Below are positions 22,747 through 62,211 of a stretch of DNA of 64,000 nucleotides, one piece after another (the stretch's first letter is position 1; each line of letters starts with the position of its first letter). Location of the stretch: NCBI RefSeq assembly GCF_017573465.1, contig NZ_JAGEPF010000003.1, positions 372,001 to 436,000 on the forward strand. The letters run 5' to 3'. Source of the DNA: Actinomadura violacea (GTDB lineage: Bacteria > Actinomycetota > Actinomycetes > Streptosporangiales > Streptosporangiaceae). The notes beneath the pieces are model-generated. The model did not search any database, was not told the DNA's origin, and saw only the letters and a list, made by a program, of their open reading frames with translations. The position numbers and the translations under genes are program-made.

Positions 22747-23721
22747 GTGGCCTCCGGCTCGCTGCGCCTGCCGCTGCGGCGCGGCCGGCTCGGGACGGTG
22801 TCCCGGGCCGGCCGCCGCCGGCGGCTGCGGGTGCTGGCGTTCCTGTCGCCGTGGCTGGCCGGGTTCGGGCTGTTCTTCGCCTACCCGCTCGCCGCGACCG
22901 TCTACTTCTCCTTCACCCGCTACAACCTGTTCACGCTGAAGTACGTCGGCCTGGACAACTACAAGTACCTGCTGCACGACGACGACGCCTGGACGGCGAT
23001 GCGCAACACGCTGTGGCTGGTCGCGGTGCTCGTCCCGCTGCGGGTGCTGTTCGGCCTCGGCGTCGCGCAGCTGCTCACCAGGATCCGGCGCGGCGGGAAC
23101 CTGCTGCGCGCGGTGTTCTACGTCCCCTACCTGATCCCGCCGGTGTCGGCGACCGTCGCGTTCGTGTTCGTGCTGAACCCCGGCACCGGCCCGTTCCCGG
23201 TGATCGCCCGGCACCTGGGGTTCTCGCTGCCGGACTTCTTCAACGACTCCGCGTGGGCCAAGCCCGGCCTGTCGCTGCTCGGGCTGTGGGCGGTCGGCGA
23301 CGTCATGATCATTCTGCTGGCGGCGCTGCTGAACGTGCCGCGGTCGCTGTACGAGGCCGCCGCCATCGACGGCGCCGGTGCCTGGGCGCGGTTCCGGCAC
23401 ATCACGCTGCCGACCGTCTCGCCCGTCCTGGCGTTCGCCGCCGTCACCGGCGTGATCGAGACGCTGCAGTACTTCACTCAGGCGATGGTCGCCGGGAAGG
23501 TCGCCGCCGGGCAGGCGGACCTGCCCGGCTCCCAGTTCGCCCCCGGCTACCCCGGCGGGTCGACGCTGACGTTCCCGCAGTGGCTCTACGACGAGGGATT
23601 CCGGCAGTTCAACATGGGATACGCGTGCGTGCTCGCGCTCGTCATGTTCGTCATCGCGATGGCGTTCACGCTGCTGCTGCTGCGGCGGTTCCGCGCGTTC
23701 GCCGGAGAGGAGGCGCAGTGA
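22747..23721 (+). CDS. Sugar ABC transporter permease (MalF type)
   Basis: 324 residues from GTG 22747, four bases after the previous stop. Six or so membrane segments; the first begins near FLSPWLAGFGLFFAYPLAAT. The EAA loop that contacts the ATPase reads LYEAAAIDGAGAWARFRHIT. Its stop overlaps the next gene as GTGA, so it is coupled to the second permease. No ATPase gene follows in this operon. Confidence 0.92.
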   Translation: MASGSLRLPLRRGRLGTVSRAGRRRRLRVLAFLSPWLAGFGLFFAYPLAATVYFSFTRYNLFTLKYVGLDNYKYLLHDDDAWTAMRNTLWLVAVLVPLRVLFGLGVAQLLTRIRRGGNLLRAVFYVPYLIPPVSATVAFVFVLNPGTGPFPVIARHLGFSLPDFFNDSAWAKPGLSLLGLWAVGDVMIILLAALLNVPRSLYEAAAIDGAGAWARFRHITLPTVSPVLAFAAVTGVIETLQYFTQAMVAGKVAAGQADLPGSQFAPGYPGGSTLTFPQWLYDEGFRQFNMGYACVLALVMFVIAMAFTLLLLRRFRAFAGEEAQ

Positions 23722-24560
23722 CCGCCCCCATCGCCTACGGCGGCCGGTCCCGGCGCACGCTGATGTGGATCGCCACGCACGCCGCCGCGATCGTCCTGGC
23801 GCTGATCTTCCTGGCGCCGCTGGCGTTCATGTTCCTGACCGCGGTGATGAGCGACTCGCAGGCGCTCAGCACGTCGCTGTGGCCGAAGCAGTGGCACTTC
23901 GAGAACTTCCGCCGCGCGTTCAGCGGCGACATGGTGCGCTGGACGGTCAACAGCACCGTGTACGCGGCGCTGTCGACCGTGCTGATGCTGGTGTCGAGCG
24001 TCCCGGTCGCCTACGCGCTGGCCCGGTTCCGGTTCCGCGGCCGCAACCTCGCGCTCGTCGTCGTGATCTCGGCGATGATGCTGCCGCCGCAGGTGACGAT
24101 GGTGCCGCTGTACATCGTGTGGTCCCGCTTCCACCTGACCGGGACGCTCTGGCCGCTGATCATCCCGCAGGCGTTCGGGGACGCGTTCTCCATCTTCCTG
24201 CTGCGCCAGTTCCTCGTCACGATCCCGCGCGAGTACGCCGACGCGGCGCGGGTCGACGGCTGCGGGGAGCTGCGCACCATGCTGCGGGTCGTGCTGCCGA
24301 TGGCCAAGCCCGCGCTCGCGGCCGTAGCGCTGTTCCAGTTCTTCTACTGCTGGAACGACTACTACGGGCCGCTGGTGTACGCCAAGCCGGAGAACTGGAC
24401 CCTCGCGATCGGCGTGGCGACGTTCCGCGCCGCGCACCACGTCGAGTGGAACCTCACGATGGCGGCGACGCTGCTGACCATCATGCCGGTGCTGGTGGTG
24501 TTCTTCCTCGCCCAGCGCGTGTTCATCCAGGGTGTGACGTTGACGGGAGTGAAGGGTTGA
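23718..24560 (+). CDS. Sugar ABC transporter permease (MalG type)
   Basis: 280 residues from GTG 23718, overlapping the upstream stop. The membrane segments start with AAAIVLALIFLAPLAFMFLT. The EAA loop EYADAARVDGCGELRTMLRV is conserved. The gene ends in TTGA, where TTG appears to start the GH4 gene. It forms the transmembrane heterodimer with the permease encoded at 22747. Confidence 0.92.
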   Translation: MTAPIAYGGRSRRTLMWIATHAAAIVLALIFLAPLAFMFLTAVMSDSQALSTSLWPKQWHFENFRRAFSGDMVRWTVNSTVYAALSTVLMLVSSVPVAYALARFRFRGRNLALVVVISAMMLPPQVTMVPLYIVWSRFHLTGTLWPLIIPQAFGDAFSIFLLRQFLVTIPREYADAARVDGCGELRTMLRVVLPMAKPALAAVALFQFFYCWNDYYGPLVYAKPENWTLAIGVATFRAAHHVEWNLTMAATLLTIMPVLVVFFLAQRVFIQGVTLTGVKG

Positions 24561-28424: not shown

Positions 28425-29465
28425 TCACCGCCGGGAGCCGCGCAGCGCGCCGCAGCTGCCCCGCACCACCAGCTCCGTCGGCAGCAGCAGCGGCGCGCCC
28501 CGGCCGCGCCGGGCCCGGTCGCGCAGCAGCAGCTCGCAGGCCCGGTGGCCGATGTCGCGGCCCGGCCGCGCCACCGCCGTCAGCGGCGGGTCGCACAGCT
28601 CCGCCCACGCCACGTCGTCCACCATCGCGATCGACACGTCGGCGGGGACGCGCAGGTCCAGCTCGCGGGCCACCAGCACGGCGGCCTCGCCCAGCAGGTG
28701 GCCGGCGGCCAGCACGGCGGTCACGTCCGCGCGGCGCTGCAGCAGCCCCGCCGCGGCGGCGTACGCGGCGTCCCGCGCGGACCGCGCCGCGACGACCAGG
28801 TCCTCCTCCACCGGGACGCCGAGCCGGGCCAGCGCGTCGCGGAACGCCCGCTCCCGCACGCCGGGCCGCTCGCCGGGCGCGGCGCCGCCGAGGAAGGCGA
28901 TCCGCCGGTGCCCGAGCCCGGCGAGGTACTCCACCAGGGACCGGACGCCGCCGGCGTCGTCGGCGAGCACCGCGGGGATCTCCGGCAGCCCGGGCAGCAC
29001 CCGGTCGGCGAACACGACGCTGGAGCACACCCGGACGGCGGCGCGCCAGTCGGCCTCGTCACCGGCGGGCAGCGCGATGATGCCGTCCACCCGCTGCTCG
29101 ACGAGCCGGTCGACGATCTCCGCCTCCTGCGCGGGGTCCCCGCCGGACGCCTCCACGATGACGTGCCCGCCGAGCGTGCGGGCGCTGGCCAGCACGCCCG
29201 CGACCAGCTCGGCGTGGAAGGGGTCGGTGACGCCGGGCAGCACGAGGCCGATGCCGCCGCTGCGGCGCAGCTTGAGGCCGCGGCCGAGGGCGCTCGGCCG
29301 GTAGTCCAGCTCGGCGGCGGCGGCCAGCACCCGCTCTCGGGTCGCCGGGCTGACCGAGCCGCCGGAGAACACCCGGGACACCGTCGCGATCCCGACGCCC
29401 GCCGCGGCCGCCACGTCCTTGATCGTCGCCGACCGTCCGTCCGCCACCGGTGCCCGCCCCTCCAT
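28425..29465 (-). CDS. LacI family transcriptional regulator
   Basis: 346 residues. HTH and hinge: [20 protein letters not shown] with the hinge [13 protein letters not shown]. The periplasmic-binding-like sensor domain begins at [20 protein letters not shown]. It is divergent from the ATPase gene at 29596, and two LacI-type palindromes lie between them, so it most likely represses both genes and is released by a sugar. ATG 29465 is the first plausible start. Confidence 0.92.
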
Positions 29466-29595: not shown

Positions 29596-30846
29596 ATGGC
29601 CGAGATCAAGCTGGACCAGGTGGACAAGATCTACTCGGGCGGCGTCAAGGCGGTGGACGGCCTGGACCTGACCATCCAGGACGGCGAGTTCATGGTGCTG
29701 GTCGGGCCGTCCGGCTGCGGCAAGTCCACCGCGCTGCGGATGATCGCCGGCCTGGAGGAGATCAGCGGCGGCAAGATCTCCATCGGCGGCCAGGTCGTCA
29801 ACGACCTGGCTCCCAAGGACCGCGACATCGCGATGGTGTTCCAGAACTACGCGCTCTACCCGCACATGACCGTCGAGCAGAACCTGGCGTTCGGCCTGAA
29901 GCTGCGCGGCACGCCGAAGGCGGAGATCAAGCAGAAGGTGCGCGAGGCCGCCAAGATGCTCGGCCTCGAGCAGTTCCTGTCCCGCAAGCCCGCCGCCCTG
30001 TCCGGCGGCCAGCGCCAGCGCGTGGCGATGGGCCGCGCGATCGTCCGCGAGCCGCAGGCGTTCCTGATGGACGAGCCGCTGTCCAACCTGGACGCCAAGC
30101 TGCGCGTGTCCATGCGGGCCTCGCTGAGCCAGCTGCACGAGCGGCTCGGCGTCACCACCGTCTACGTCACCCACGACCAGATCGAGGCGATGACCCTCGG
30201 CTCGCGGGTGTGCGTGCTGCGCGAGGGCAAGCTGCAGCAGGTCGACACCCCGCAGCGGCTGTTCGACAACCCCGTCAACATGTTCGTCGCCGGGTTCATC
30301 GGCTCGCCCGCGATGAACTTCGTCTCCGCGCAGCTCGTCCAGGGCGACGGCGGCGCGCAGGTCTCCTTCGCCGGCTTCACGCTGCCGGTGCCGGACGCGA
30401 TCCTCGACGACCGGCCCGCGCTGCGCGACTACCTCGGCCGCGAGGTGATCCTCGGCATCCGCCCGTCGGACTTCGAGGACGCCGCGCACGCCAACCCCGA
30501 CTGGGCGCCGATGTCGGTGAAGAGCAGCGTCACCGAGGAGCTCGGCAGCGAGATCAACGTCATCTTCACCATCGACGCCCCGCCGGTCGAGCACAAGGAC
30601 ACCGCCGACCTCGCCGAGGACGCCGCCGAGGGCGACGCCGACATGGCGATCCCGCTGGTGGACAACAAGGCGCTGTGGACCGCCCGCGTCAACTCCCGCT
30701 CGCACGTGCGGCCCGGGCAGGACATCGACCTGGCCGTGGACACCCGGCGGCTGCAGTTCTTCGACCCGGCCAGCGGCCTCGCGATCGGCCACCCGGACGC
30801 CGCGGCCGCCGTCGTGCCGGACCTGACGAAGAAGAGCGACGACTGA
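29596..30846 (+). CDS. ugpC: Sugar ABC transporter ATPase (UgpC/MsiK type), unlinked to permeases
   Basis: 416 residues from ATG 29596. Walker [10 protein letters not shown], signature [15 protein letters not shown], Walker [13 protein letters not shown], then a C-terminal regulatory TOBE-type domain (about 240-416) with an acidic insertion near 340-365. It has no SBP or permease genes beside it in its own transcription unit and is under a LacI-type control region. In streptomycetes a shared ATPase, MsiK, powers several sugar importers; this gene may do the same for the ATPase-less systems at 21414 and 62341 (inference). Confidence 0.92.
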
Positions 30847-30921: not shown

Positions 30922-31920
30922 CTACTTCACCGAGCCGGCGAGGACGCCCTGGACGAAGTAGCGCTGGAAGGCGAAGAACACGACCAGCGGCACCAGCAGC
31001 GACAGGAACGCGCCCGGCGCGAGGATGTCGATGTTGCCGGTGAACTGGCGCATCTGCGACTGCAGCCACTTGGTCATCGGCTGCGCGCCGGTGTTGGCGA
31101 ACACCAGCGCGACCAGCAGGTCGTTCCACACCCACAGGAACTGGAAGATGCCGAGCGAGGCGATCGCCGGGCCGCCCAGCGGGAAGATCACCCGCCGGAA
31201 GATCGTCCACTCCGAGCCGCCGTCCATCCGCGCCGCCTCCAGCAGATCCCGGGGGATCGCGGCGAAGAAGTTGCGCAGCAGGAAGATCGCGAACGGCAGG
31301 CCGAACGCGACGTGGAACAGCACCACGCCGGTGATCGACCCGTACATCTTGAACCCGCCGATGTCGATGTTCCCGTAGAGCTTGGCGACCGGCAGCAGCG
31401 CGACCTGCACCGGCACCACCAGCAGCGCGACGACGATCAGGAACAGCCAGTCGCGGCCGGGGAACTCCAGCCACGCGAACGCGTACGCCGCCAGCGACGC
31501 GATCGCGACCACCAGCACCGTCGCCGGCACCGTGATCAGCACGGTGTTCCAGAACGAGTCGACGAAGTCGGGCTTGTCCAGCAGCGAGCTGTAGGCGCTG
31601 GTCGTGATCTGCGACGGGTGGGAGAAGATCTTCCACCAGCCGCCGGCGCCGTTGTCCTCGGTGGAGCGCAGCGACTCCACGAACAGGCCGAACGTCGGCA
31701 CCAGCCAGAACAGCGCGACCAGCACCAGCAGCACCTGCACGACGGTGCCGCCGGCCCGGCCCACCAGGCGGGACGCCACGCTCCGGCGCGGCGCGCCGGC
31801 CGCCCCGTTCGCCGCGCCGTCCTTGCCCGGCGCGGCGGCCACGGCCGCGGTGCCGGTTCCGGTGCCGCCGTCGTCCGGCGCGCCGTCGGGGGTGACGTCA
31901 GTGCCGTCCGCGGTGCTCAT
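30922..31920 (-). CDS. Sugar ABC transporter permease (MalG type)
   Basis: 332 residues. A disordered N-terminal tail of about 50 residues rich in Gly/Ala/Thr precedes the first membrane segment (VVQVLLVLVALFWLVPTFGL). The EAA loop reads LLEAARMDGGSEWTIFRRVI. ATG 31920 overlaps the upstream permease stop (ATGA). Last gene of a four-gene ABC operon (ATPase, SBP, permease, permease). Confidence 0.92.
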   Translation of the reverse strand: MSTADGTDVTPDGAPDDGGTGTGTAAVAAAPGKDGAANGAAGAPRRSVASRLVGRAGGTVVQVLLVLVALFWLVPTFGLFVESLRSTEDNGAGGWWKIFSHPSQITTSAYSSLLDKPDFVDSFWNTVLITVPATVLVVAIASLAAYAFAWLEFPGRDWLFLIVVALLVVPVQVALLPVAKLYGNIDIGGFKMYGSITGVVLFHVAFGLPFAIFLLRNFFAAIPRDLLEAARMDGGSEWTIFRRVIFPLGGPAIASLGIFQFLWVWNDLLVALVFANTGAQPMTKWLQSQMRQFTGNIDILAPGAFLSLLVPLVVFFAFQRYFVQGVLAGSVK

Positions 31921-33296
31921 TTCCGCTCCTGCCGCAGTCGCCGGATGTTGAACAGCATGGCGGGCAGCACCAGCAGGAACAGCAGCACCGCGATCGCGCT
32001 GCCGGAGCCGGGGTCGTTGCCGCCGCCGAACGACTTGGTCCACATCTCCAGCGCCAGCACGTTGGCGTTCGGATCGCCGCCGCCGATGATGAACACCAGG
32101 TCGAAGACCTTCAGCACGTTGATGACGAGCGTGACCAGCACGACGACCAGCACCGGCGCGAGCAGCGGGATCGTCACCCGCCGGAACACCTGCCACTCGG
32201 TCGCGCCGTCCACCCGGGCCGCCTCCAGCGCGTCGCGCGGGATCGCGGCCAGGCCCGCGGCGATCAGCACCATCGCGAACCCGGACCACACCCACAGGTA
32301 CGACCCGATGATCGCCGGGGTGATCAGGGTGGTGCCGAGCCATTCGGCGCCGCCGTAGGAGGCGGTGAAGTTGCCCTTCGGCAGCCGCAGCGTCACCGCG
32401 CCCGACGGCACCTTCTTCAGCGTGAACGTGCCGTCCTTGCCGGTGGTGGCCTTCGCGACGACCTTCCCGCCGCGCAGCGCCTCCACCTTGATGCCGGGCA
32501 GGCCGGCCTCGCCGGCGTTCGGCTTGTTCTGCTCGCCGCCGCCGCCCTTGGTGAAGTCGAACCAGACCGTCCCGGTCACCTGCCCGGCCTTCGCGGCCGG
32601 CGGCTGCGCGGCCGGCTTGGCGTCCTTCGGCAGGTACTCGGGCTTGACCTTCACCAGCGGCAGCAGCGCGGTCTGCCCCGCCGACACCGGAGCCGACCCG
32701 AGCACCGCGCCGCCCTGCTCGTGGACGAGCTGGTCGCCGCCGGTGCGCGGGCCCGCGCCCGGATAGGTGGTGCCGGACTTGAAGGTGTCGTGGATCGCGA
32801 CCAGCGCCGCGTTCGCCACGCCCTGGTCGGGGTCCTGCTGGTAGACCAGCCGGAAGATGACGCCGGAGGCGAGGAACGAGATCGCCATCGGCATGAACAC
32901 GACGAGCTTGAACGCCGTCGCCCACCGGATCCGCTCGGTGAGGACGGCGAAGAACAGCCCGACGATGGTGACGAGCGTGGGCGCGACCACCACCCACACC
33001 ACGGTGTTGCGCACCGCGACGAGGTCGTCGTGCCCCTGGAACACCCCGGTGTAGTTGTCGAAGCCGACGAACGAGCCGCCCGAGGCGTCGAAGAAGCTGC
33101 GGATCACCGAGTACACGATCGGGTACACGACCAGGAACCCGAGCAGCAGCAGCGCGGGCAGCAGGAACAGCAGCGCCAGCCAGGACGGCGGCGTCAGCCG
33201 CTCCCGGGCGCCGCGCCGGGGCGCGGCCGGGCCGGTGACGGCGGCGGCGCCGCCGGCCGTCGCGGCCGGCGGCACCCCCTCATGCGTGGGCTTCAT
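31917..33296 (-). CDS. Sugar ABC transporter permease with large extracytoplasmic insertion
   Basis: 459 residues, about 150 more than a normal MalF-type permease. After membrane segments LLFLLPALLLLGFLVVYPIV and the following ones, an inserted region at about 165-315 contains a Pro/Ala/Lys linker and a beta-rich domain (GLPGIKVEALRGGKVVAKAT, TGKDGTFTLKKVPSG) that resembles CarboxypepD_reg/Cna-B-type Ig-like folds. The permease then resumes with TTLITPAIIGSYLWVWSGFA and the EAA loop ALEAARVDGATEWQVFRRV. It should lie outside the membrane, where it may dock the binding protein or wall glycans. The MalF P2 loop is a functional analogue but not obviously the same fold. Confidence 0.88.
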   Translation of the reverse strand: MKPTHEGVPPAATAGGAAAVTGPAAPRRGARERLTPPSWLALLFLLPALLLLGFLVVYPIVYSVIRSFFDASGGSFVGFDNYTGVFQGHDDLVAVRNTVVWVVVAPTLVTIVGLFFAVLTERIRWATAFKLVVFMPMAISFLASGVIFRLVYQQDPDQGVANAALVAIHDTFKSGTTYPGAGPRTGGDQLVHEQGGAVLGSAPVSAGQTALLPLVKVKPEYLPKDAKPAAQPPAAKAGQVTGTVWFDFTKGGGGEQNKPNAGEAGLPGIKVEALRGGKVVAKATTGKDGTFTLKKVPSGAVTLRLPKGNFTASYGGAEWLGTTLITPAIIGSYLWVWSGFAMVLIAAGLAAIPRDALEAARVDGATEWQVFRRVTIPLLAPVLVVVLVTLVINVLKVFDLVFIIGGGDPNANVLALEMWTKSFGGGNDPGSGSAIAVLLFLLVLPAMLFNIRRLRQERK

Positions 33297-33314: not shown

Positions 33315-34661
33315 CTACTTGAAGGCCTTGGCGGCCGCGGCCTCCAGCGTGGCCTGCGTCCCCTTGACGTCGGTGGGCTTGCTCACGAACTGGCGCAGCG
33401 CCTCCCACTCGCCGGCGCCCGGCGTCGCGCCGAACGCGGCGGGCGCGAGGTCCGACATGTCGTAGCGGGCGCTGTCGCCGGCCTGCTGCATCTGCTGGAT
33501 CAGCTGCTTGGCGATCGGGTCGGAGTAGGCGTCCGGCGACACCGCCTTGTTGGGCGTGAGGTAGCCGCCGAGCCCGGCCCAGACCTTCCCGGCCTCCGGG
33601 GAGGCGAGGAACTTCATCAGCGCCTGCGCGCCCTTGCCGTCCTTCATCGCGACCGCGACGTCGCCGCCGATGACCGCCGGGGCGGTGTCGCCGGCCTTCG
33701 GGAAGGCGAACACCTTGGCGTCGGTGCCGACCTTGGCCTTGGTGGTGGCGATGTTCGCCGCGGCGAAGTCGCCGCCGTAGGCCATCGCGGCCTTGTTCTG
33801 GCCGAACACCTGCGTGATCGACTCGTCGAACTTGGTCTTGGTCGCGGTGGCGACGCCGCCGTTGAGGAACTGCGGCTTGCCCCAGATCTCGGCGAGCGTC
33901 TGCAGCGCCTTGGCGACCGTCGGGTCGGTCCACTTGATCTCGTGCTTGGCCAGCTTGTCGTAGTTGTCCGGGCCGGCCTGCGAGAGGTAGACGTTCTCGA
34001 ACCAGTCGGTCAGGGTCCAGGAGTCCTGCGGGCCGGCGGCCAGCGTGAACGGGGTGGTGCCCGAGTCCTGCAGGGTGCCGGCGTCCTTCACCAGGTCCGC
34101 CCAGGCGGCCGGCGGCTGCTGCACGCCCGCGTCGGAGAACGCCTGCGGCCGGTACCAGATGATCGACTTGTAGGCCGCCTTGGCGATCACGCCGTAGGTC
34201 TTGCCCTGGTAGGAGCCGAGGTCCTTCCAGTACGGCGAGAAGTTCTGCGACACCTCCGACACCACGTCGGGCTCCAGCGGCTTCAGCTGGCCCTTGGCGG
34301 CGTACTGCTGCATCAGGCCCGGCTGCGGCAGGATCGCCACGTCCGGCGGGTTGTGCGCGGCGAGCTTCGGCCCGAGGTAGGCGTCGGTGTTCTCACCGGT
34401 CGAGGCGTACTGGACGGTCGCGCCCGTCTGCTTCTCGAACGCCTGCAGGACCTTGCGGAAGTTGGTCTCCTCCGTCCCGGTCCACTTGGCGGCCACCGAG
34501 ACGGTGACGCCCTTCAGCTCCGTCCCCCCGGCCGAGGTCTTCGAGCCGCCGCCCTTGTCGTCGTCGCCACCGCCGCACGCGGCCGCGGCCGACAGCAGCA
34601 GTCCCGCCGCGACGGCGGCGCCCACCGCCCGGCGGCTCGTCACGCCTCTGCTGACCCTCAT
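33315..34661 (-). CDS. Sugar ABC transporter substrate-binding lipoprotein
   Basis: 448 residues with the signal peptide and lipobox SAAAAC, then a Gly/Asp/Lys linker. The binding domain includes VSVAAKWTGTEETNFRKVLQ, NPPDVAILPQPGLM and FTLAAGPQDSWTLTDWFENV, as in alpha-glucoside-type (AglE-like) binding proteins. ATG 34661 overlaps the stop of the ATPase gene (ATGA). The ligand is probably an alpha-glucoside or maltodextrin, supported weakly by the CTTG/CAAG palindromes upstream of the operon. Confidence 0.9.
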   Translation of the reverse strand: MRVSRGVTSRRAVGAAVAAGLLLSAAAACGGGDDDKGGGSKTSAGGTELKGVTVSVAAKWTGTEETNFRKVLQAFEKQTGATVQYASTGENTDAYLGPKLAAHNPPDVAILPQPGLMQQYAAKGQLKPLEPDVVSEVSQNFSPYWKDLGSYQGKTYGVIAKAAYKSIIWYRPQAFSDAGVQQPPAAWADLVKDAGTLQDSGTTPFTLAAGPQDSWTLTDWFENVYLSQAGPDNYDKLAKHEIKWTDPTVAKALQTLAEIWGKPQFLNGGVATATKTKFDESITQVFGQNKAAMAYGGDFAAANIATTKAKVGTDAKVFAFPKAGDTAPAVIGGDVAVAMKDGKGAQALMKFLASPEAGKVWAGLGGYLTPNKAVSPDAYSDPIAKQLIQQMQQAGDSARYDMSDLAPAAFGATPGAGEWEALRQFVSKPTDVKGTQATLEAAAAKAFK

Positions 34662-35887
34662 CCCTCATCCTTCCTGAGCGGACCCGCCGCGGCCGATCCC
34701 CAGATCGACGCGCCGGACTCGATATCGAAGAAGTGCAGACGACCGGTGTCGACGCGGATCGCCACCGGGTCGCCCACCTTCACGCGGGTGCGGGGGCTGA
34801 ACCTCGCGACGAGGTCCGTGCGGGGGCGCTCCATGTGCCCCAGCACGTCGGTCCCCGCGTCGCGGGCGAGCTCCTTGGTGTCCTCGGTGACGACCTGGGC
34901 GGCCTCGACCGCGAAATGGACCAGCACGTCCGAGCCCATCGCCTCCACGAGGTCGGCGGTGGAGGTCAGCCCGGACCCTTCGGGCGCGTCCACGAGCTCG
35001 GAGTCCTCCATGTCCTCGGGACGGATGCCGACGACGACGTCCCGCCCGAGGTAGGACGCGAGGCCGGGGCGCTCGTGCAGCGCCGCGGCCGGCAGCGTCA
35101 GGGTCTGGCCGCCGATCTCCAGGCGCGGGTTCGCCGCGTCCCCGGACAGCGTGCCGTGCAGCAGGTTCATGGCGGGTGAGCCGATGAAGCCGGCGACGAA
35201 CAGGTTCGCCGGCCGGTCGTAGAGCTCCTGCGGCGGTGCCACCTGCTGGAGCTGGCCCTTCTTCATCACCGCGACCCGGTCGCCGAGCGTCATCGCCTCG
35301 GTCTGGTCGTGCGTGACGTAGATCGTGGTGACGCCGAGGTCGCGCTGGATGCGGGCGATCTCCGCGCGCATCTGGACGCGCAGCTTGGCGTCGAGGTTGG
35401 ACAGCGGCTCGTCCATCAGGAACGCCTGCGGCTCGCGGACGATCGCGCGGCCCATCGCGACCCGCTGCCGCTGGCCGCCCGACAGGTTGCGCGGCTTGCG
35501 GTCCAGGTGGTCGGTGAGGCCGAGGATCTGCGCGGCGTGGTCGACCTTCTCGCGGATCTCCCGCTTCGGCATCTTGCGCAGCGACAGCCCGAACCCGATG
35601 TTGTCGCGCACCGACAGGTGCGGGTAGAGCGCGTAGCTCTGGAAGACCATGGCGACGTCGCGGTCGCGGGCGGGGACCCGGTTGACGGCGCGGCCGCCGA
35701 TCGTGACGGTGCCCTCGGAGATGTCCTCCAGGCCGGCGACCATCCGCAGCGCGGTGGTCTTGCCGCAGCCGGACGGCCCGACCAGCACCAGGAACTCGCC
35801 GTCGGCGATGCTGAGGTTCAGGTCGGTCACGGCCCGCGTCCCGTCGGGATAGACCTTCCCGACGCTGGTCAGGTCGACCTCTGCCAC
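34658..35887 (-). CDS. ugpC: Sugar ABC transporter ATPase (UgpC/MalK type)
   Basis: 409 residues. Walker A GPSGCGKTT, signature [15 protein letters not shown], Walker [13 protein letters not shown] and a C-terminal TOBE-type domain. I chose GTG 35887 because AGAGGAG lies five bases upstream; the ATG at 35908 lacks one. First gene of the complete ABC operon 35887 to 30922. It is closely similar in architecture to the orphan ATPase at 29596, so the two may be interchangeable. Confidence 0.92.
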   Translation of the reverse strand: MAEVDLTSVGKVYPDGTRAVTDLNLSIADGEFLVLVGPSGCGKTTALRMVAGLEDISEGTVTIGGRAVNRVPARDRDVAMVFQSYALYPHLSVRDNIGFGLSLRKMPKREIREKVDHAAQILGLTDHLDRKPRNLSGGQRQRVAMGRAIVREPQAFLMDEPLSNLDAKLRVQMRAEIARIQRDLGVTTIYVTHDQTEAMTLGDRVAVMKKGQLQQVAPPQELYDRPANLFVAGFIGSPAMNLLHGTLSGDAANPRLEIGGQTLTLPAAALHERPGLASYLGRDVVVGIRPEDMEDSELVDAPEGSGLTSTADLVEAMGSDVLVHFAVEAAQVVTEDTKELARDAGTDVLGHMERPRTDLVARFSPRTRVKVGDPVAIRVDTGRLHFFDIESGASIWGSAAAGPLRKDEG

Positions 35888-35899
35888 GGCGTCTCCTCT

Positions 35900-35936
35900 G
35901 CTTGACAAGCACTACCCCGGCGTAACTTGAAACAAG
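35900..35936. promoter_or_regulatory. Paired CTTG/CAAG palindromes upstream of the ABC operon
   Basis: GCTTGACAAGC at 35900-35910 and CTTGAAACAAG at 35926-35936. Both have CTTG and CAAG arms, as in operators of MalR/AglR-type LacI regulators of maltose and alpha-glucoside genes in streptomycetes. They sit directly upstream of the ribosome site of the ATPase gene. Confidence 0.6.
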
Positions 35937-60445: not shown

Positions 60446-61240
60446 CTACTCCTTGATGGCCCCCGAGAGCATCCCTGCAATGAACCGCCGTTGCAGGAAG
60501 ACATAGACGATCACGATGGGCGCGGCGATGATCAGCGCACCCGCCATGAGCAGCGAGTAGTCGGTCTTGTGCGCGCCCTGGAAGAACGACAGCCCGAGCG
60601 GCGCGGTGCGCAGCCCCTCGTCGGAGTTGACGATCACCAGCGGCAGCAGGAACTCGTTCCAGGTCCACATGGTGATCAGCACGACCATCGTGAGGATGGC
60701 GGGCCGGCCGACCGGCACCAGCACCCGCCACAGGGTCGTCCAGCTCGACGCGCCGTCCATCCGGGCCGCCTCCATCAGCGACGGGGGGACGCTGCGGAAG
60801 TAGGCGCGCATCCAGAACGTGCCGAACGCGACCGACATGGCGACCTGCGGCAGGATCAGCCCGGCATAGGAGTTGTCCAGCCCGGCCGAGCGCAGGTCGA
60901 AGTACAGCGGCACGACGACGGCCTCGGTGGGGATGGTGAGGCCGGCGAGGAACAGCAGGAACACCGCGCCCGCGCCGCGGAACCGCATGACGCCGAGCGC
61001 GTACCCGGCCATGATCGAGAAGGTGCTCGCCAGCACCACCGTGACGGCGGTGACGATCACGCTGTTGCGCAGGTAGGCGGCGAAGTGCCCCTCGTTCCAG
61101 GCGACCCGGAAGGTGTCGAACGACAGGTTCCCGGGCAGCTGCAGCGCCTGCGCGACGATGCCGATCATCGGGAACAGCGCGACCACCGCGAACAGCGCCA
61201 GCACGGCGTGGTTCAGGATGCGCTCGTAACGCCTGCTCAT
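60446..61240 (-). CDS. Sugar ABC transporter permease (MalG type)
   Basis: 264 residues. First membrane segment AVLALFAVVALFPMIGIVAQ, EAA loop LMEAARMDGASSWTTLWRVL. ATG 61240 overlaps the upstream permease stop (ATGA). It is followed 49 bases later by the secreted deacetylase gene on the same strand. Confidence 0.92.
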   Translation of the reverse strand: MSRRYERILNHAVLALFAVVALFPMIGIVAQALQLPGNLSFDTFRVAWNEGHFAAYLRNSVIVTAVTVVLASTFSIMAGYALGVMRFRGAGAVFLLFLAGLTIPTEAVVVPLYFDLRSAGLDNSYAGLILPQVAMSVAFGTFWMRAYFRSVPPSLMEAARMDGASSWTTLWRVLVPVGRPAILTMVVLITMWTWNEFLLPLVIVNSDEGLRTAPLGLSFFQGAHKTDYSLLMAGALIIAAPIVIVYVFLQRRFIAGMLSGAIKE

Positions 61241-62211
61241 TCGCCCTTCCCCTCGACGAGGCGGCCGATGCCCGCGGTGATCGCGAACGCCAGCACGGCC
61301 AGCGTGACGCCGATGGCGCAGCCGAGCCCGACCTCGCCGGTGTTGAACGTGCGGTTGTAGACCTCGTAGGCGGGCACCTTCGTGGAGTCGCCCGGCCCGC
61401 CGGCGGTCGCCATGTAGATGAGGTCGAAGTTGCGCACCGCCATGATCGTGGTGAGCGTCAGCGCGACCGACAGCTCGCGGCGCAGCCCCGGCAGGGTGAC
61501 GGTGAAGAACTCCCGGATCGCGCCGGCGCCGTCGATCCGCGCCGCCTCGTACAGCTCCCGCGGGATCTTCTGCACGCCGGCGAGGAACAGCACCAGCGCG
61601 AGGCCGATCTCCACCCAGGTGCCGACGAGCCCGATGGCGGGCAGCGCGAAGGTGAAGTCGCCGAGCCAGCCGTGCCGCCAGTCCGGCAGCCCGAGGGCGT
61701 GCAGCCAGCCGAGGACGGTGTTGACCGGCCCGTGCGTCGAGTAAACCCACTGCCACGCCACCGCGACCGCGACCATCGCGATCACCTGCGGCATGAACAG
61801 CACGGTGCGGAAGAACGTCAGGCCGCGGATCTTCGTCCGGGACATGACGGCGACCAGCACGAACGCGATGCAGCACGGCAGGATCGCGTAGAACACGATC
61901 AGCACCAGCAGGTGCCCGAAGGCGCCGCGCAGCGTCGGGTCGGTCCAGGTGGCGGTGTAGTTGGACAGCCCCGCCCAGGTCGCCTGGCCGATGCCGTCCC
62001 AGTGGTAGAGGGAGAACTGCGCCCCCCGCACCAGCGGCCACAGCAGGAACGCGCCGTACACCACCAGGGCGGGCAGCACGTACAGCCAGCCGACGGCGCG
62101 GGGCTCCCCCGGCGGCCGGGACCTGGCCCGGCGGCCCGCGGGCCGCGCGTTGCTCGAGCCGGACGCCTCGGGTCCCGGTTCGGGGGTCTTCTGCCGCGCG
62201 ACGGTCGTCAT
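61237..62211 (-). CDS. Sugar ABC transporter permease (MalF type)
   Basis: 324 residues from ATG 62211, chosen because AGGAG lies seven bases upstream; GTG 62232 is the longer alternative. Basic, Pro-rich N-terminus, then VGWLYVLPALVVYGAFLLWP and further membrane segments; EAA loop LYEAARIDGAGAIREFFTVT. The two permeases form one channel; no ATPase gene is seen in this cluster. Confidence 0.92.
   Translation of the reverse strand: MTTVARQKTPEPGPEASGSSNARPAGRRARSRPPGEPRAVGWLYVLPALVVYGAFLLWPLVRGAQFSLYHWDGIGQATWAGLSNYTATWTDPTLRGAFGHLLVLIVFYAILPCCIAFVLVAVMSRTKIRGLTFFRTVLFMPQVIAMVAVAVAWQWVYSTHGPVNTVLGWLHALGLPDWRHGWLGDFTFALPAIGLVGTWVEIGLALVLFLAGVQKIPRELYEAARIDGAGAIREFFTVTLPGLRRELSVALTLTTIMAVRNFDLIYMATAGGPGDSTKVPAYEVYNRTFNTGEVGLGCAIGVTLAVLAFAITAGIGRLVEGKGE

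Follow-up and report, generated by a model that had tools for sequence, protein, structure and literature searches.

Permease F, encoded in an operon of the order K-E-F-G, carries an inserted extracytoplasmic domain of about 145 residues (residues about 173-318; 32343..32780, on the minus strand, as are all parts of F given below), which is absent from insert-less relatives. The models described below make us confident that the insert is a folded domain facing outward. A MalF-type subunit with an outer domain is an already known kind of protein; a prealbumin-like insert in the loop between transmembrane helices TM3 and TM4 is a new variation on it. The insertion is a clade-wide feature of AglF-like permeases, of which we recognised no description among the titles and opening abstract lines of open-licence papers. 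By analogy with MalF, we propose that the domain helps to dock or position the binding protein E, a mechanism that could equally well prove right or wrong.

The window, which is the whole stretch of 64,000 nucleotides analysed, belongs to the 11.17 Mb genome of Actinomadura violacea. The reading frame, Pfam and the presence of six TM helices identify F (459 aa; 31917..33296) as a MalF-type permease of the CUT1 class, and the nearest named F genes, among the best 80 of 580 relatives from a scan of genome contigs, are from Actinomadura. The first gene upstream of F encodes the solute-binding protein E (SBP_bac_1 in Pfam; 33315..34661, minus strand), which reads as a lipoprotein, as the preliminary description had said of the gene at 33315. 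Its start overlaps by four bases the gene of a MalK/UgpC-like ATPase (K1; Pfam; 34658..35908, minus strand), and a four-base overlap also joins the end of F to the gene of the MalG-type permease G (Pfam; 30922..31920, minus strand). The four genes, K1-E-F-G, all lie on the minus strand. Convergent with G is a second ATPase gene, K2 (Pfam; 29596..30846, plus strand), and beyond G there is also a LacI-family regulator (Pfam; 28425..29465, minus strand). F thus belongs to a CUT1 sugar ABC importer, encoded by a K-E-F-G operon, whose substrates are probably alpha-glucosides (AglF-like kind).

Two separate MalK/UgpC-like ATPase genes thus flank a single E-F-G set, and both K1 and K2 score above the NCBI cut-off for the UgpC subfamily. 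K1 adjoins E in all eight Actinomadura loci (L001-L008), whereas the search for K2 succeeded in five, L004, L007 and L008 being the exceptions. The window holds two more permease pairs of the same superfamily (about 22810-24536 and 60479-62166), whose F-like genes have no insert and leave ~32 residues between the matched arms, or 16 for L140 in the permease alignment.

The permease core of F is conventional. Pfam detects BPD_transp_1 at residues 318-448 (E 2e-18; 67.2 bits against a curated cut-off of 26.4), and F has six TM helices. The EAA-type coupling motif EAARVDG (residues 358-364; 32205..32225) follows TM4, with E358, A359, D363 and G364 invariant in 74 rows. This motif is cytoplasmic in this permease family. 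Because three TM helices precede the insert, which sits between core helices TM3 and TM4, and the cytoplasmic EAA motif follows TM4, the insert is placed outside. The preliminary description had claimed an extracytoplasmic insertion of about 150 residues between the helices of a MalF-type permease, and both its size and its side of the membrane agree with our results. The loop itself retains ancestral parts: a short helix (residues 159-172; 32781..32822) and W319-L320 in the junction to TM4 (residues 307-322; 32331..32378) are assigned to the ancestral loop, since insert-less relatives keep counterparts of both. The TM core of F also fits the solved CUT1 permeases, best of all mycobacterial SugA of LpqY-SugABC (7cad_A, tied with other SugA chains; Z 23.6, 270 residues aligned, rmsd 3.9). 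The SugA chains, of 305-307 residues, are too short to hold an insert of the F type.

In the full-length AlphaFold2 model (74 rows), block-mean pLDDT was 88-97 over residues 181-310, and the pTM of 0.66 leaves uncertain how the domain sits on the core. The insert modelled alone (35 rows), as the preliminary description had suggested, gave a pTM of 0.79 and a mean pLDDT of 85.0, with 106 of 167 residues at pLDDT of at least 90; the possibility it had raised, that nothing folds here, was thus not borne out. The gene segment is also unlikely to reflect a frameshift or an assembly artefact, because its GC3 (0.986) resembles that of the core (0.978-1.0) and two further genomes of this genus carry 96% identical genes; the distribution of loop lengths among the aligned permeases, given below, led to the same judgement.

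The insert has two halves. The N-terminal, beta-rich half (residues 173-238; 32583..32780; strands 191-194, 197-200 and 209-215) folds confidently in the model and has no clear match. The second half (about 239-306; 32379..32582) is prealbumin-like as judged by sequence profiles, with weak structural support. Pfam matches in F are CarboxypepD_reg at residues 263-310 (E 6.5e-5; 23.7 bits, curated cut-off 32.3) and SdrD_B at 243-308 (E 0.0024; 18.5 bits, cut-off 29.7); since both scores are below the cut-offs, we class this half as prealbumin-like kin rather than as a member of either Pfam family. Among 28 homologues, CarboxypepD_reg was found at E<=0.01 in 26 (best 2.8e-9) and SdrD_B in 23 (best 6.9e-10), and a profile of the inserts matches SdrD (10ps_A) in the PDB with an E of 1.8e-13. 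All 50 rows shown for the full-length model in VIA-align match over the TM core, which tests the insert poorly, and we therefore searched with the insert alone. SdrD 10ps then came top (Z 5.1; 70 of 167 residues aligned, rmsd 2.5), tied with the MG1 domain of a bacterial macroglobulin (Z 5.0), values around 5 being weak matches by the tool's own note. Foldseek returned no match for the insert model at E<=0.001.

These comparisons sharpen the earlier reading of an Ig-like domain with a CarboxypepD_reg/Cna-B-like strand pattern: kinship with CarboxypepD_reg and SdrD B holds for the second half, whereas a classical Ig domain is disfavoured, as both profiles and structure matches favour prealbumin-like folds. 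A conserved lysine defines the isopeptide bond of Cna-B/SpaA pilin domains; among 53 insert rows (21 near-copies dropped from the 74, the set used for all conservation counts), no column of residues 173-322 has lysine in at least half, and an isopeptide-bonded pilin domain was rejected. The likeness to the prealbumin-like domains of SdrD B, CarboxypepD_reg and SpaA lies in the sequence profile, with SdrD top in the structure ranking. Unlike them, the insert occurs as one domain within a membrane protein and has, in addition, an N-terminal half and a loop rich in glycine. SdrD B repeats bind calcium. By alignment with SdrD, the loop D247...N260...E263 (32508..32558) occupies the position of the B-repeat D..E loop, and calcium binding there is our guess.

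Among the outer domains of type I importers, P2 of MalF is the best known. E. coli MalF of MalFGK2 likewise has a large outer domain in the MalF-type subunit, and its TM core aligns well with that of F (best MalF row 9nxc_H; Z 21.8, 277 residues aligned, rmsd 4.2). A figure legend gives P2 as residues 91-271, and the same paper describes a direct contact of part of this domain with MalE (PMC3150292). In an alignment with MalF and MalG, P2 falls between F residues 66 and 90, in core loop TM1-TM2, whereas at the place where F has its domain MalF has about ten residues (351-361) and no insert. On this difference of place we rejected homology between the F insert and P2. Lying in different loops, the two most likely arose separately, and any likeness between them would be convergent. 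The MalF analogy of the preliminary description thus stands as regards an outer domain in a MalF-type subunit and fails as regards the loop.

To describe the spread of the insert we aligned 138 permeases, dropping copies of the query itself, L035, L039, identical rows and any row that did not match both arms, and took as loop length the stretch between the positions of F residues 166 and 320. L039, a record labelled Acidobacteria, has a sequence that ends before the insert position. The loop measures 148-160 residues in 74 rows, where the insert is present, and 7-18 residues in 59, so that 133 of 138 rows show one of two states; the other five have inserts of 84, 89, 90, 131 and 204 residues. 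In the own genome, all 18 other permeases matching over both arms have no insert and are among the 59 short-loop rows. A tree restricted to the TM core (107 of the 138 rows, 31 near-copies dropped; quick method, midpoint-rooted, with long branches among the own-genome rows) placed all 53 insert rows in one clade (SH-aLRT 99), requiring one change. No loss of the insert was seen inside the clade; part of the rows were retrieved with the insert itself, so losses there could be missed. On present evidence, the sequences point to a single insertion into the TM3-TM4 loop.

Next to the insert clade on this midpoint-rooted tree are 39 insert-less rows from among L040-L080, which we take to be AglF-like from the agl gene order; they have 11-12 residues at the insert site and, in the loci examined, the same E-F-G order. 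The loci L037 and L038, of the order EFG-GH13-K, are also close to the insert clade, but have two TM-like segments at the site. The TM3-TM4 loop contains two or three TM-like segments in L036 (4965-6233), L037 (4785-6122), L038 (4818-6110) and L042 (4338-6284), and about 200 soluble residues in L047 (4926-6482); BPD_transp_1 was the only domain found by Pfam in L036, L037, L042 and L047. It appears that this loop has received insertions repeatedly. A frame of 594 aa in the same genus (L098, 832-2613) matches query residues 93-141 twice, as if a TM segment had been duplicated.

Of 23 other genomes of the genus, 16 match at E<=1e-30, and in seven no match was found. In a sample of the phylum, the insert profile matches 28 of 396 genomes, or 24, own genome included, after discounting four (G294, G376 and G074, with partial matches in frames of 824-2279 residues, and G151, with a frame of 112 residues). 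It matches 100 of 101 genomes of genus g16, which we infer to be Streptomyces from its named tree neighbours, and 38 of these have two or more places. The phylogenetic spread, which the preliminary description had proposed to survey, was thus followed mainly within Actinomycetota.

E and G adjoin F in L001-L034 and L160-L168 wherever the contig extends (L017 starts at F and L028 ends at F). Streptomycetaceae loci are of two kinds. In the first, a binding protein and a GH13 enzyme precede E, F and G, an arrangement seen in 11 of L001-L034, in L160 and L161 and in the plasmid loci L169 and L170. A second binding-protein gene together with GH13 lies directly upstream of E-F-G in L013, L160, L161, L169 and L170, and in loci of the GH13 type a single permease pair may work with two binding proteins. 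In the second kind, FHA/FtsK genes precede E, F and G and TagF-like or Stealth genes follow, as seen in L009 (named Streptomyces) and in three g16 genomes (L162, L163 and L164); this copy may connect the uptake of sugar with the making of wall polymers. Neither GH13 nor TagF/Stealth markers were found in ~5 kb flanks of the Actinomadura loci L001-L008.

Two studies assign S. coelicolor aglFG (SCO2979/2980) in silico as an alpha-glucoside permease (PMC7581861) and SCO2981-2983 as wall teichoic acid glycosyltransferases (PMC3937824). The order SCO2979-2983 fits the E-F-G-TagF order of L162-L164, and the insert clade, judged by gene order and locus-tag numbers, seems to include S. coelicolor AglF (SCO2979). 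The preliminary description had reckoned with a loop common to all actinomycete orthologues of known function; the insert is indeed a trait of the whole clade, seemingly AglF included, but the function of AglF is an in silico assignment.

A beta-rich segment and a prealbumin-like sandwich, together ~145 residues, entered the outer TM3-TM4 loop and have been retained by the clade. As to what the domain does, it would rise over the membrane next to the entrance of the translocation path and provide an extra contact surface for E, so that E is held or oriented on F-G through the transport cycle. In this way it would serve as MalF P2 does, from another loop, and the sandwich might be stiffened by calcium, as the B repeats of SdrD suggest. 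The docking reading is based on the precedent of P2, part of which contacts MalE. Insert-less relatives work in similar E-F-G units, which counts against it. A distance-matrix test over 33 operons gave a partial r of 0.32 between insert and E (0/2000 permutations) and of 0.16 between insert and G (91/2000 permutations). Set beside control windows of the core, the insert gave 0.33 with E, and partial r with E was 0.43-0.52 for core windows 38-97, 60-119, 67-97 and 383-455, and 0.26, 0.05, 0.16 and 0.31 for windows 98-158, 323-382, 350-409 and 400-432, respectively. As four of the eight core windows score above the insert, the test does not single it out, and we dropped the claim of insert-E co-evolution. 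The net charge of the insert, which ranges from -23 to +9 over the 74 rows, correlates with that of E (r 0.91) and not with that of the TM core (r -0.17; 29 loci, kinship ignored); this link is positive, not complementary, and speaks for exposure rather than docking. The insert changes fast, with dN/dS of 0.20-0.87 in its halves versus 0.09-0.27 in the core (eight within-genus comparisons), which fits a partner-specific surface and weak constraint alike.

A less probable but still credible alternative is that the domain packs on F, G or lipid and stabilises the outer end of TM3-TM4 as an element of assembly or rigidity, contact with E being immaterial. In its favour, residues 273-306 track G (partial r 0.33) rather than E (-0.14), and the junction residues F310, G316, W319 and L320 are kept in 53/53 rows, in contrast to a drifting first half, residues 173-238 being the most variable region compared (mean pairwise identity 32% over the 53 rows). 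However, W319-L320 has a counterpart in insert-less relatives, so that keeping it needs no insert, and these relatives presumably assemble without the domain.

It is unlikely that the domain binds glycan, holding substrate oligosaccharide or wall polymer near the transporter. Such a role would suit the GH13 genes that neighbour E-F-G (11 of the 34 loci L001-L034, plus L160 and L161) and the TagF-like or Stealth genes near it in L009 and L162-L164, but these markers were not found in the ~5 kb flanks of the Actinomadura loci, and the range of net charge makes it unlikely that the domain has one constant charged ligand, for example teichoic acid. Within residues 173-238, A229 is the sole residue present in 53/53 rows, and three of the seven mostly aromatic columns (178, 245, 248, 291, 310, 314 and 319) sit at the junction, both of which also argue against this reading. 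Least likely of all is a tolerated ornament without positive function, easier to keep than to remove: its rapid evolution and the five rows with different inserts, which mark the site as permissive, are in keeping with it, but the length is held at 148-160 residues in 74 rows, D247 and G289 are present in 53/53, E263 in 49/53 and D, N or E at 260 in 51/53, and no loss was seen in the clade, subject to the retrieval of part of the rows with the insert itself.

Recognising a domain insertion in AglF-like permeases fills an annotation blank: of the 11 plasmid records with a relative, eight name an "ABC transporter permease subunit", one a "sugar ABC transporter permease" and two no gene. The domain has been conserved in a wide range of soil bacteria, and its deletion in Streptomyces would be a simple functional test. 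We advance as a speculation, which we regard as doubtful, that a second outer docking module for ABC sugar importers, an adhesin-type sandwich in the TM3-TM4 loop of the MalF-type subunit, arose independently in Actinobacteria; that this loop is a general site for unrelated modules, TM segments and soluble domains among them, tuning contact with the binding protein; and that one streptomycete copy, being linked with wall teichoic acid genes, may connect the recovery of sugar with wall construction. If a second, unrelated outer domain in another loop is indeed what F carries, such modules would arise repeatedly.
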